Assembly: GCF_001748225.1 (NCBI RefSeq)
Contig: NZ_BDFE01000008.1
Location: 124,001 to 188,000 of the forward strand
Origin: Desulfoplanes formicivorans
GTDB taxonomy: Bacteria; Desulfobacterota; Desulfovibrionia; Desulfovibrionales; Desulfomicrobiaceae
Length of the DNA stretch: 64,000 bases
Reading direction: 5' to 3'
Part shown: piece by piece, positions 22,015 through 59,207 of the stretch
Layout of the letters: the number at the start of each line of letters is the position of its first letter
How positions within the stretch are numbered: position 1 is the stretch's first letter
Program-made: the position numbers and the translations under genes
Notes under the pieces: model-generated
What the model was told of the DNA's origin: nothing
The model's database searches: none
The model's input: the letters and a program-made list of their open reading frames with translations, nothing else

Positions 22015-22068
22015 ATGCGGGAGCAGGTCGGGGATCGCTTCCCGGCACATGTTCCCATGAAATAAGAT

Positions 22069-22106
22069 CCATGAAAAAAGGCCCGCTTGCGGGCCTTTTT
22101 TCATGG
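22069..22106. terminator. bidirectional intrinsic terminator
   Basis: A 17-bp perfect stem (22069-22085 with 22090-22106, GGCCCG/CGGGCC core) has A-tract and T-tract flanks included, between folD (+) and the convergent AmrB gene (-). Confidence 0.92.
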
Positions 22107-22121
22107 ATTGTATCCTGCTGA

Positions 22122-27551: not shown

Positions 27552-27893
27552 TCACACCATTTCGTTGATCAGTTTTCCCTGGAGAAAGGCCTGGGACGAA
27601 AGCGTGGTCGCGTTGGCATCATAGGCCGTCTGGGTGGCGGTCATCTCCACCATTTCCCGGGTCAGATCCGTGGTGCTGGGAGCGGTTTCCTTGTCGGGGA
27701 GACTGGATGGCTGGAGGGGTGGTTGGTTATCATCCTGACGGATGGTTGCCCGAACACCCCTGGTGGAGGTTTCCTGCATGTCCACCCGGTCATGGGTGAA
27801 ACCCGGGGTGTTGACATTGGCAATATTGTTGGATGTGACCTGTTGCCGTGTCTGGAAGGCGTGCAGGGCGCTGGCTGAAATTTCCAGGGACAT
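27552..27893 (-). CDS. short flagellar rod/hook-like protein (FlgC-like)
   Basis: This 113-residue protein has both halves of the flagellar rod signature. The N-terminal SALHAFQTRQQVTSNNIANVN is followed by TPGF, and the C-terminal helix is DLTREMVEMTATQTAYDANA. The middle is short and hydrophilic, as in FlgB/FlgC rather than FlgE/FlgG, but it is shorter than FlgC (about 140-150). The start at 27893 has AGGAGG 7 nt upstream. It is not next to other rod genes; its neighbours are the sigma-54 activator and folE2. It may be an accessory rod or hook-filament component. Confidence 0.72.
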   Translation of the reverse strand: MSLEISASALHAFQTRQQVTSNNIANVNTPGFTHDRVDMQETSTRGVRATIRQDDNQPPLQPSSLPDKETAPSTTDLTREMVEMTATQTAYDANATTLSSQAFLQGKLINEMV

Positions 27894-28048
27894 GGGCAAT
27901 CCTCCTCTTTACAGGCTCTGGCCGCTTGTACCCTGCCGGGATTCAGGGGGGCATCAGGCGGCCTTCATGGTGATCCCAAACATGATGACAGGGTTTTGTA
28001 GCTGCTCGTACCACGGTTGCACGGCGTGGGCAATGTTTTGTCAGACCA

Positions 28049-54576: not shown

Positions 54577-56280
54577 ATGCAGATTTTTTCCCCCCTGAAC
54601 CAATTGGTCAGCCAACCGGTTCCAGGCTCGTCAGCTTGGGATTCTGAACCGGAAAGGGAGACCGATACTCGCTTTGACACGTGTTTTTCCGAGATGCTGT
54701 CGGCGGATGATAACGTGGATAATGATGCCTGTTCGCGTGCATCCCAGCAGACTTCCGAAACGATGAAGGCTGATGAACCAGATACCAAGCAGGAATATTT
54801 TTCCCCTGCTACGGAACATGATGAGGCTCAGCTCCGGGAAAATGTTGCAGGGTCTGATGCTCCTTGGGAAGCACATGATCAGTCCCTGCCCGAGACATCG
54901 GCCATGTCAGAAGATGAACTTAGCAAACTTTTGGATCAGTTTTTGGGGTTGATTCGGAGCCGTTCTGGGGAATCGGTTGCCGATATCCAATCCGGGCCAA
55001 CAGGTTTGAATCACAGGAGTTCTGAGAATGTCGGAAGCTTCCAGCCGTATTTTTTAGCGGGCAAGAAGCAGCAAGGCCAGGGAGTTGTGGAAGAATTCAG
55101 TGAGCTCAAGGATGCTTTACGCCAACTGGGACAGCGTTTTGCCAACAAGGACTTGGACGCGTTGTCCGGCCATGAGCTGGCCCGGCAGATGCGGTCCATG
55201 AGTGTTTCCGCGGAAGACGTGGCGGCTATTAAGGACATGCTGCGCAAAGTGTTGGGAAGAGATGGCGAGGGCATGTTGTATCCCGGTGGCCAGCTTGCCA
55301 ACGAGCAGGCAGTGTCTGAAACCGGGGTCGGAGAAGCTTTCCCTGCAGAAAGGCAGGCCTTGCGATCCCTGTTCAATGACAAGGTGCATATGGATCCGGC
55401 TCCTCGGCAGGAGACACCTCGTCATGGCAAAGGTACAGAGGAGCAACAGCGATTTTCCCTCGGGAAATCGAATGTTGTTGAAAAGACGTCCTCCAGTGAG
55501 TCTGCAGGCCAGACACGTGTGGGGGATCAAGATGAACAGCAGCGTTTTTTCCTCGGGAAATCGAACGTTGTTGAAAAGACGTCCTCCAGTGAGTCTGCAG
55601 CCCAAGTACGTGTGGGGGAATTCCAAGGCGAAAACGCTGGCCTTACGGGCCGAAAACCGGGGTCTTCAGACCAGGAAACCAGCCGCGACTCAGGTTTTGC
55701 GGGCTCCAAAGATCATACCGCCAAGGTTGCGGATACCACTTCTCGTTCCGAGACCCTGTTCGCACGAGCGCTTCTTGAAGGAGAAGCTTCGGATCAGTCC
55801 AGGATAACGAATCGTTCCAACGTGTCTCGCCATGTTTTGGAGCAGGTGCAGCAAGGGGCTTTCCGTACCCTCGGACAGGGGAAAAAACAGCTTTCCTTGC
55901 AGCTTAATCCTGCGGATCTGGGCACGGTGAACGTTATTCTTCAAGTCAAGGGCAAAGAGGTTAACGCCATTTTGAAGACCAGTCACGAGGATACCTCGCG
56001 CATCCTGGGTGAACATATGGTTCAGCTCAAGGATCATCTCGAAAAACAGGGTCTTAAAGTGGTGAGGCTGGAGGTCCAGAATCAGATGGCCTCCAATGAT
56101 CAATCCGGTCAGTGGAGCAGTGGTTCCGAACACAACCAGTCCAGGGAACGGTACGAGGCCGATATGCGGGAATTGCGTTGGCGCTCGCTTCGGAGTGAAG
56201 GTGAAGTTTTGGCCCGTGATGTGCAAACTGGAGAACATACGGTAAATGTTTCCCCCCGGGGAGTTGATTTTTTCGCATGA
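54577..56280 (+). CDS. fliK: flagellar hook-length control protein FliK
   Basis: FliK measures hook length and switches export specificity. It has 567 residues: a hydrophilic, low-complexity N-terminal two-thirds, then the conserved C-terminal Flg_hook domain (about residues 425-510). That domain contains LSLQLNPADLGTVNVILQV, the GLKVVRLEVQ end and the ILGEHMVQLKDHLEKQ helix. The central part holds a 31-residue tandem duplication (55441-55620). The start at 54577 has AAGGAGG upstream, and a sigma-54 promoter lies before it. flgD and flgE follow on the same strand. Confidence 0.9.
   Translation: MQIFSPLNQLVSQPVPGSSAWDSEPERETDTRFDTCFSEMLSADDNVDNDACSRASQQTSETMKADEPDTKQEYFSPATEHDEAQLRENVAGSDAPWEAHDQSLPETSAMSEDELSKLLDQFLGLIRSRSGESVADIQSGPTGLNHRSSENVGSFQPYFLAGKKQQGQGVVEEFSELKDALRQLGQRFANKDLDALSGHELARQMRSMSVSAEDVAAIKDMLRKVLGRDGEGMLYPGGQLANEQAVSETGVGEAFPAERQALRSLFNDKVHMDPAPRQETPRHGKGTEEQQRFSLGKSNVVEKTSSSESAGQTRVGDQDEQQRFFLGKSNVVEKTSSSESAAQVRVGEFQGENAGLTGRKPGSSDQETSRDSGFAGSKDHTAKVADTTSRSETLFARALLEGEASDQSRITNRSNVSRHVLEQVQQGAFRTLGQGKKQLSLQLNPADLGTVNVILQVKGKEVNAILKTSHEDTSRILGEHMVQLKDHLEKQGLKVVRLEVQNQMASNDQSGQWSSGSEHNQSRERYEADMRELRWRSLRSEGEVLARDVQTGEHTVNVSPRGVDFFA
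55441..55620 (+). repeat. 93-bp tandem duplication inside fliK
   Basis: Two copies (55441-55533 and 55534-55620) code for nearly the same 31 residues (LGKSNVVEKTSSSESA core) and differ at few bases; the core SNVVEKTSSSESA is identical at the protein level. The duplication keeps the frame. Confidence 0.95.
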
Positions 56281-56292
56281 TACGAGGTCGCC

Positions 56293-57015
56293 ATGTCCGG
56301 AATCCAAACAGCTGGTAACATATTGGGAGCCTATGAACGGGATCAGGCTGCAGCATCTCAGGGTACGGGTGATGCCACCGAGCTGGGCAAGGATGCCTTT
56401 TTGCAGCTTCTGGTCACCCAGCTGGAGAATCAGGATCCGCTGGAGCCCATGGAAGATACCGAGTTCATCTCCCAGCTGGCCCAGTTTTCCAATCTGGAGC
56501 AAATGACCAACATCTCGGAAGGGATTGATACGCTGGTGGAGAACAGTACTCAGGATATGCTCAACGGGGTAAACTACATCGGCAAGGGAGTTGTGTCGGC
56601 CGGAAGCACGATCAGCAAATCTGGGGAAGAATCGAGCACCCTCTATTACACCATTGACGAATCTGCAGTGAAGATGACCATCAATATTTTCGATGCTGCC
56701 GGTAATCTGATCGATTCAGAGGAAGTCGGAGCCCAGCAGGCAGGAACCTATGCCTTTAATTGGGATGGGATTGACTATGACGGTCAGGAGCAGCCCGATG
56801 GGACGTATTCGGTCACTTTTGCTGCTGAAGACGTCAATGGCCAGCCGGTGCTCACCAGCACGGAGGTGGCTGGTATTGTCACCAGTGTTGAGTCTCTGAA
56901 CGGACAGACCTTGCTTAACCTTTCCGACGGACGTTCCGTGAATATGCTTGATGTTCGTGAAGTAGCCATGGTTTCTCAGGAAACCGGTCAGGATACACAG
57001 GGTGAGTCAGAGTAG
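56293..57015 (+). CDS. flgD: flagellar hook assembly protein FlgD
   Basis: FlgD is the hook-capping scaffold. It has 240 residues with the export and capping region [20 protein letters not shown] (about residues 37-56) and [14 protein letters not shown]. The FlgD Ig-like and Tudor-like domains follow ([17 protein letters not shown] and [17 protein letters not shown]). It starts 12 nt after fliK and is followed by flgE after 88 nt. Confidence 0.95.
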
Positions 57016-57103: not shown

Positions 57104-59074
57104 ATGGGATTGTCAGCGGCTTTGTATTCGGGGACCAGTGGGCTCAAGGCTCACGGGGAATCCATGACGGTCATTGGTAATAATATCGCAAATGTGAGTA
57201 CGGTTGGTTTCAAAGGGTCCCGGCTTCATTTTGAGGATGCCCTGAGCCAGGCAACAACAACAGCATCTGGTATCGGACAGATAGGTCGCGGCGTGCAGGT
57301 TGGCACTGTCATGGCTGATTTTGCCCAGGGTTCTCTGGAGACAACCACCGAGGCGACCGACCTGGCCATTGGCGGAGACGGTTTTTTTGTGGTCTCCCCT
57401 CCAGGTGAGGATATTCAGTACTATACACGAGCCGGTAATTTCCGCTTTGATTCCGATGGCAAGCTGACTGACCCGCATGGCTATGTGGTCCAGGGGTGGA
57501 AGGTGCAGAACGACAACAACCCCATCGCTGCGACAAGTACGCAAACGGAAAGCTCGGCCGCCAAGATCGAAGGCGTACCAACGGATATTGTTCTGGATAA
57601 TTTTCAGTCTCCCCCTCAGGCAACATCCCATGTGGACATCATGACCAATCTTGATTCCCAGTCCACGGATCATGCCACAGATACGACAGATCCGATGTTC
57701 GCCATGTTTAGAAATTGGGATGGCACGCAGGATGAGCCCCTTGGCGACAGCATGTATGCCTATCAGTCGACCCTGAAAACCTACGATCAAAACGGCAGCG
57801 CCCATAACATGACGGTGTATTTTGATCCGGTCAGAGACGATACGGTTACTGGTGCGGCAAATGGTAGTCAGATCTGGGAATACATGGTGACAGTTCCTCC
57901 GTCAGATGACGGGAGAGTGCTTGATGACGGAACCGCATTGTCCACTACTTCATCTGCCGGAGTTCTCATGATAGGAACCCTGACATTCAACCCGGCCGGT
58001 GAGCTGGTCAATACATCTGCGTTCACGTTGCCCAGTGACGCGGCAACTGCCACTGATTTGTCGGGCTGGACCCCGGCTGATTTCTCCAGTGACGGTTATC
58101 CCATTTGTACTGCCAATTTTCTGGGGGAAGAAGATGCCTCGGGAACCAATCAGTCCAATCCCAAAAATATTGAAATCAATTTCGGGATAAAAAATACAAC
58201 AACCGCCTGGGACGGAGCTCCTGCTAATGCCGCAGCTGTTGGGACGGATATAGCGCTGCTTCCCGAGATTGCGGACAGTACCATCTCGGCCCTTTCGTCC
58301 ACCAGTTACAATACGGGTTCAACCACGCTGTTTCAGTCTCAGGACGGGTATACGGCCGGTTTTCTCCAGAGCGTTTCCGTTGACCGTGACGGCATTCTCA
58401 CGGGGAGCTATTCCAATGGCCAGGTTTTGGAACTCTATGCCCTGACTCTGGCAGATTTCAATGATCAGTATTCGCTGTATCGTGAAGGAGGTAATCTTTT
58501 TTCCGAAACCCGTTCGTCCGGACCGCCGCTCACGGGCATGGCCAACTCCAGTGGTAAGGGGGCCATTGCTTCCAACTCCCTGGAACAATCCAACGTTGAT
58601 CTGGCCACGGAATTTGTGAACATGATCACCACCCAGAAAGGATATCAGGCCAACAGCAAAACCATCACCACCACCGATGAAATGCTCTCTACCCTGATTC
58701 AGATGAAACGACAATTCCTTTTACCATTTCTGGTCTTCAAAAAGCCCGCCTTTTGGCGGGCTTTTTGGGTTGGCATGCAGGGCCTTGATTGCATGTGGTG
58801 GTCCCGGATGCTACATGCAATCATCGCATGGAAATGGCATGGTGCCCACGGGATGGGTGTTAGCAAACACGGTGTTGTCTATAACAAGGAGGAGTGTCAT
58901 GCTCGCAAGCTTTACCATTTTGCCCATGGGTGTGGGCGAAGAATTGCGGGAGCATATTGCAGCGGTGGTGGATCTGGTGGATGGGTCGGGGCTCGATTAC
59001 AAGGTCGGGGCCATGCAGACCACTCTGGAAGGAGATCAGGCCAAGGTGATGGACTTGATCATGCAATGTCATAA
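57104..59074 (+). CDS. flgE: flagellar hook protein FlgE with missing stop codon
   Basis: FlgE is the hook structural subunit. The N-terminal rod signature is LYSGTSGLKAHGESMTVIGN, with NIANVSTVGFKG. The usual C-terminal helix is EFVNMITTQKGYQANSKTI, TTTDEMLSTLIQMKR. Family proteins end at about this point (Arg536, 58709-58711). Here the next codon is CAA at 58712 where TAA would be expected, and the frame runs on 120 codons through an intrinsic terminator and into the next gene. Transcripts ending at that terminator would have no stop codon. It could be a real stop-loss or a sequence error. AGGAGG precedes the start. Confidence 0.9.
   Translation: MGLSAALYSGTSGLKAHGESMTVIGNNIANVSTVGFKGSRLHFEDALSQATTTASGIGQIGRGVQVGTVMADFAQGSLETTTEATDLAIGGDGFFVVSPPGEDIQYYTRAGNFRFDSDGKLTDPHGYVVQGWKVQNDNNPIAATSTQTESSAAKIEGVPTDIVLDNFQSPPQATSHVDIMTNLDSQSTDHATDTTDPMFAMFRNWDGTQDEPLGDSMYAYQSTLKTYDQNGSAHNMTVYFDPVRDDTVTGAANGSQIWEYMVTVPPSDDGRVLDDGTALSTTSSAGVLMIGTLTFNPAGELVNTSAFTLPSDAATATDLSGWTPADFSSDGYPICTANFLGEEDASGTNQSNPKNIEINFGIKNTTTAWDGAPANAAAVGTDIALLPEIADSTISALSSTSYNTGSTTLFQSQDGYTAGFLQSVSVDRDGILTGSYSNGQVLELYALTLADFNDQYSLYREGGNLFSETRSSGPPLTGMANSSGKGAIASNSLEQSNVDLATEFVNMITTQKGYQANSKTITTTDEMLSTLIQMKRQFLLPFLVFKKPAFWRAFWVGMQGLDCMWWSRMLHAIIAWKWHGAHGMGVSKHGVVYNKEECHARKLYHFAHGCGRRIAGAYCSGGGSGGWVGARLQGRGHADHSGRRSGQGDGLDHAMS
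58738..58769 (+). terminator. intrinsic terminator of flgE, inside its open frame
   Basis: CAAAAAGCCCGCC (58738-58750) pairs with GGCGGGCTTTTTG (58755-58767) around TTTT: a 13-bp perfect stem with its own T-run, 27 nt after the expected end of FlgE. Confidence 0.92.
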
Positions 59075-59207
59075 CCTGATGATGGCACGCGCCCCCAGAG
59101 TGCTCACCTCCATCACCCTGGACGATCGCAAGGGAGCTGCCAATCGTCTGGAGGGAAAGGTGGCTGATGTGGAAACCGTCTTGGGAAGGCAGGTCAGGCA
59201 TGAGTAA
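58899..59207 (+). CDS. MTH1187-family thiamine-binding protein (UPF0045)
   Basis: This 102-residue ferredoxin-like-fold protein of the MTH1187/YkoF type is described as thiamine-binding. The segment MGVGEELREHIAAVVDLVDG and the YKVGAMQTTLEGDQAKVMDL region are conserved. The start is fixed by AAGGAGG 8 nt upstream. It lies after the flgE terminator and within the over-long flgE frame, in another frame. Its 3' end overlaps the next gene by 8 nt. No TPP riboswitch was recognised upstream. Confidence 0.82.
   Translation: MLASFTILPMGVGEELREHIAAVVDLVDGSGLDYKVGAMQTTLEGDQAKVMDLIMQCHNLMMARAPRVLTSITLDDRKGAANRLEGKVADVETVLGRQVRHE

Follow-up and report, generated by a model that had tools for sequence, protein, structure and literature searches.

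The hook gene flgE and its missing stop codon

The stretch of DNA analysed here (64,000 nucleotides, hereafter the window) belongs to the draft genome of Desulfoplanes formicivorans, a free-living sulfate-reducing bacterium, and corresponds to positions 124001-188000 of contig C8, which extends to position 225046 or beyond. Its forward strand carries flgE, the gene of the flagellar hook protein, whose ATG at 57104 has AAGGAGGA a short way upstream. As read from the sequence, the gene encodes 536 residues up to the C-terminal motif QMKR, specified by CAG ATG AAA CGA and ending at 58711. Codon 537, where a stop would be expected from the relatives described below, is CAA. The frame then remains open until a TGA located within the next gene, which makes 656 residues in total, and none of the three frames contains a stop between 58712 and 58767 (Table 1). 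Direct reading agrees on this point with the sequence-only reading, which had claimed that flgE has no stop codon after QMKR. The loss of the flgE stop codon is thereby confirmed as genuinely present in the assembly.

The flgE product contains PF00460, PF22692, PF07559 and PF06429 in that order, each above its cut-off, and reaches the cut-off of TIGR03506, the model of the FlgEFG subfamily. Among the 25 models shown of 27, no FlgE equivalog of NCBIfam attained its own cut-off. The gene is accompanied in the window by flgD and fliK, and in a quick tree the end branch leading to its product was unremarkable (0.27).

Table 1. Position and basis of the features at the flgE locus and of its neighbours (window coordinates).
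Feature	Position	Strand	Basis
flgE coding sequence, to the conserved QMKR	57104..58711	+	Pfam FlgE_D2, Flg_bbr_C, LlgE_F_G_D1, Flg_bb_rod; at most 69% identity to FlgE of relatives
CAA in place of the stop codon	58712..58714	+	Sequence; stop here in 29/29 relatives read
Predicted in-frame tail QFLLPFLVFKKPAFWRAFW, of about this length, added before run-off at the terminator	58712..58768	+	Translation
Putative flgE terminator, 13-bp hairpin with A5/T5 arms	58738..58767	+	Folding and own hairpin definition; position as in relatives
Accidental 120-codon extension of flgE on terminator read-through, ending within the next gene at TGA 59072-59074	58712..59074	+	Open reading frame and translation
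flgD (hook cap), upstream neighbour, open frame	56293..57015	+	FlgD domains
fliK-like hook-length control gene	54577..56280	+	PF02120
Next gene, Thiamine_BP family	58899..59207	+	PF01910; Shine-Dalgarno-like AAGGAGG upstream

Comparison with the flgE genes of relatives

The sequence-only reading had proposed a comparison with the flgE genes of relatives, and this comparison turned out to be uniform. A FlgE search matched 55 of 61 genomes (the own genome included), and the best 30 loci provided the 29 relatives whose gene ends were read, each belonging to a separate genome of the family or order. All 29 carry a TAA, TAG or TGA exactly at the position of the CAA, directly after the conserved end. 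The CAA is one substitution away from a stop seen in these relatives, which bears out the earlier statement that a single base change separates it from a stop codon. Seventeen further FlgE copies, picked by us from the remaining rows and judged by eye from their last residues, have their stop after the corresponding residue or one codon further on, four of them with one extra S or V; the 29 and 17 ends together cover part of the genomes with FlgE matches. Within the own genome, MKR followed by a stop also closes two other genes, one of them a second FlgE-like copy and the other FlgG-like.

Pattern searches extended the comparison to 297 genomes of the order. The pattern KTITT...KR followed by a codon that does not start with T matched in a single genome, at the own flgE. 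The same pattern followed by TRR matched in 51 of the 297 genomes, the own genome not being among them, and all 51 listed matches are true stops; no match was seen in the corresponding backwards control. These patterns see AAR and CGN codons only and are blind to sense codons starting with T, and in all they detected 52 of the 297 genomes. Matches in the other genomes were counted by pattern and not each confirmed as flgE. The 51 include many genes that were also read in the 29 relatives, and the two tests are not independent. In a genome contig collection from which the records of the own genome were possibly left out, a protein scan confirmed no other copy of the locus and a DNA pattern with base 58712 left open gave no match.

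The terminator hairpin downstream of flgE

A perfect hairpin of 13 pairs (arms 58738-58750 and 58755-58767, loop TTTT) begins after a spacing of 26 nt from position 58711. The region 58690-58780 folds with -30.5 kcal/mol (z = -3.67), and none of 200 shuffled sequences was equally stable. As had been noticed from the sequence alone, this hairpin comes before any in-frame stop of flgE. A simple terminator scan of the window did not list it, and it was found under our own hairpin definition; we explain this by the requirement of the scan for a T-run 3' of the stem, the T residues being here in the 3' arm.

Our definition yields six strand-specific strong hairpins at four places of the window. The last stop in the flgE frame lies 1685 nt before the end of the flgE hairpin, against a maximum of 433 nt, in any frame, for the other strong hairpins; in the other two frames, the distances from the last stop to the end of the flgE hairpin are 90 and 64 nt. 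The longest of the listed strong terminator-like elements in the window is a perfect 19-bp hairpin with A/T-rich arms on the reverse strand (22067-22108).

Hairpins were also sought behind the flgE genes of the 29 relatives under a strict definition without mismatches, by which 16 were scorable and the other 13 left unscored. In 15 of these 16, the last sense codon is followed by the hairpin start at a distance of 18-32 nt; in the remaining one the distance is 80 nt. Judging from this position, the hairpin of the window is the ordinary putative flgE terminator at its usual place. A second in-frame stop is absent before the hairpin start in 13 of the 16 scorable relatives and before the hairpin end in 12, including one (L022) in which a stop occurs a few bases past the hairpin end. 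Because no second stop precedes the hairpin, most such flgE genes would turn non-stop at the terminator after the loss of a single codon. The absence of a back-up stop is unremarkable, the loss of the stop itself is what is unusual, and the whole event is one lost stop. A programmed frameshift allowing ribosomes to reach a stop was set aside, there being none in any frame from 58712 to the hairpin end.

Ribosome rescue and the predicted fate of FlgE

The genome encodes a transfer-messenger RNA (tmRNA) with the tag ANNDNYAYAMAA, identified by a family match above cut-off and confirmed by ARAGORN. Each of the 14 control genomes, archaea among them, gave at least a weak signal in the family search, and only the above-cut-off match was used. 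Genes for SmpB (193 bits, cut-off 27) and for ArfB (L056:1480-1896 on contig C4; NF006718, 189 bits, cut-off 100) are also present. By its predicted gene content, the organism has genes for both trans-translation and untagged rescue.

Transcripts ending near 58767 would be non-stop, and the ribosomes reaching their 3' end would need to be rescued. Run-off would add about 19 mostly hydrophobic residues to FlgE; the tail QFLLPFLVFKKPAFWRAFW has a mean Kyte-Doolittle hydropathy of +0.65, and its first nine residues one of +2.1. By the tmRNA/SmpB route FlgE would be tagged and then degraded, and by the ArfB route it would be released with its tail of about 19 residues. Read-through of the terminator would instead give a FlgE of 656 residues with an accidental tail of 120. 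The suggestion of the sequence-only reading that tmRNA rescues these messengers is plausible in view of the tmRNA, SmpB and ArfB genes, the rescue itself remaining a prediction.

The C-terminus of FlgE occupies a constrained position in the hooks for which structures are described. In the Campylobacter hook, the C-terminal FlgE helices line the 16-Å export channel (PMC5097172). In the Salmonella hook, a C-terminal helix lines the channel with polar and charged residues and extends to Arg 402, the last residue named (PMC6769732). Since the FlgE C-terminus lines a narrow channel and the tail is hydrophobic, the tailed protein would be expected to assemble poorly or to block export. The sequenced stock would be expected to contain less FlgE and to move poorly or not at all, unless the second FlgE-like gene or a partial activity compensates. 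We infer the consequence for motility as well as the rescue.

Origin of the stop loss

Quite probably, the main flgE lost its stop codon to CAA by a recent point mutation that is confined to the sequenced strain or its lineage, the remainder of the gene and the terminator being unchanged. We infer that the base is genuine rather than an assembly error and that the change is recent. The latter is suggested because flgE is otherwise normal and the other flagellar genes met are free of internal stops: no break was seen in the matched stretches of flgD, fliK, motA, motB, the flgF/flgG-like genes, three Flagellin_N matches and seven Flg_bbr_C matches, which are the genes met rather than a full survey. 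The end of flgE resembles ordinary damage to a gene end rather than a designed feature. Among the three origins that had been considered from the sequence alone, the recent mutation is the one that gains support, from the intact gene and from the stop codon found in 29 of 29 relatives; a sequencing error is unlikely at the coverage reported for the genome, and the intended design finds no support.

Several observations weigh against a recent mutation. The genome report calls the type strain motile, with reference to the 2015 species description (PMC5460402). Motility would not be expected with the main hook gene dead, unless the mutation came later, the second FlgE-like gene substitutes for it or the base is wrong; the mutation may have arisen in culture after motility was observed. 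The only same-genus genome cited here (G001, 77% complete) gave no flgE match. Its counterpart of the thiamine-binding-protein gene, 76% identical, is preceded by a LysR-like gene (judged by eye from the translation), and the junction between flgE and the thiamine-binding-protein gene is therefore not common to the genus. Finally, the pattern for a codon with a first base other than T, when run backwards as a control, matched in four of the 297 genomes, which places a lone match within chance; the single forward match carries weight because it falls on flgE.

It is unlikely, though the most serious of the alternatives, that the strain truly has a stop at 58712-58714 and that the draft consensus is wrong by one base. 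The genome of strain Pf12BT (3,000,979 bp, 26 contigs) is a short-read draft, assembled from Illumina data with Velvet before gap closing with Platanus (PMC5460402), and the reported motility of the strain would fit such an error. The reported coverage is 370x, which makes a substitution error unlikely (PMC5460402). The base in question lies well inside contig C8, and the other flagellar genes met in the regions inspected showed no breakage. A strong hairpin, here at a distance of 26 nt, could disturb reads on one strand, and this counts in favour of an error.

The change could also be real and of long standing, tolerated either because another FlgE-like protein builds the hook or because the tailed FlgE works well enough, which we consider very improbable. 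The candidate for such a replacement is the second FlgE-like gene at C20:47400-49067 (L035:2401-4068), which encodes all four FlgE Pfam domains, ends with a normal stop and lies about 10 kb before flgF/flgG-like genes. With the reported motility, these are the points in favour of a tolerated loss. Its product is divergent, however, with 47-49% identity over the full length and an end branch of 0.84 in the quick tree, where it forms a long branch of unsure placement; by identity it stands closest to the FlgE of the window. The gene adjoins pnp, truB, a DHH-family gene and the genes of IF-2 and nusA, and the pnp, truB, IF-2 and nusA genes part it from the flgF/flgG-like genes, whereas the copy of the window stands with flgD and fliK. 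The absence of any decay in the window flgE except at its stop also argues against a long-standing loss. The C20 gene might nevertheless help to account for the motility of the strain.

Comparison with known non-stop genes

Natural non-stop genes are known in bacteria. In arfA and brfA, the hairpin is located within the coding sequence and takes part in a feedback loop controlling a ribosome-rescue factor (PMC8012679; PMC6881298). The only respect in which flgE resembles Escherichia coli arfA and Bacillus subtilis brfA is that a terminator or hairpin precedes every in-frame stop, which would give a non-stop messenger. This layout, which in brfA takes the form of an intrinsic terminator before any in-frame stop (PMC6881298), could suggest that flgE is stop-less by design and that the amount of FlgE or the assembly of the hook is set by tmRNA and ArfB. 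The presence of the tmRNA, SmpB and ArfB genes and the motility of the strain would fit such a function. In contrast to the hairpins of arfA and brfA, which are internal to the coding region, the flgE hairpin starts 26 nt past the conserved end of FlgE, where the flgE terminator usually stands. Their products are rescue factors under tmRNA feedback, whereas flgE encodes a structural protein. The arrangement is not conserved either: a non-stop end was found in none of the 29 relatives, in none of the 17 further copies and, by pattern, in none of the 296 other genomes. A tail would moreover project from a C-terminus that lines the channel in the published hook structures. A non-stop flgE designed in the manner of arfA, as the sequence-only reading had also envisaged, was rejected for this lack of conservation and for the usual place of its hairpin, and we give it hardly any credit. 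Still less credible is the specific version in which a non-stop messenger gives rise to the main hook protein, the amount or assembly of the protein being set by tmRNA tagging against ArfB release and motility being coupled to the capacity for ribosome rescue.

The likeness is closer with bacterial stop-loss (non-stop) mutations, in which a sense codon replaces the stop, no in-frame stop precedes the terminator, and run-off and rescue are predicted. No basic difference separates flgE from these, except that the gene affected here is a flagellar hook gene and that the allele is known from a draft genome alone. Stop-codon readthrough also leads to non-stop complexes and tmRNA tagging, as mentioned in PMC8012679 with reference to Ueda et al. 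2002; in flgE, the stop codon itself is missing from the DNA. The end of flgE thus has nothing out of the ordinary as a stop-loss allele.

The allele calls for caution in annotation, as a gene caller acting on the flgE frame would give a FlgE of 656 residues with an accidental tail. The sequenced stock may also differ from the motile phenotype that was described. If the base is real, the strain provides a natural test of how the messenger of a structural protein without stop is handled with both tmRNA and ArfB present.

Neighbouring genes

The extension of the flgE frame overlaps the thiamine-binding-protein gene (58899-59207) that follows. Elsewhere in the window, the reverse strand at 27552-27899 encodes a mini rod protein of 115 residues, which consists only of the Flg_bb_rod and Flg_bbr_C ends and scores below the cut-offs of the FlgB and FlgC models.
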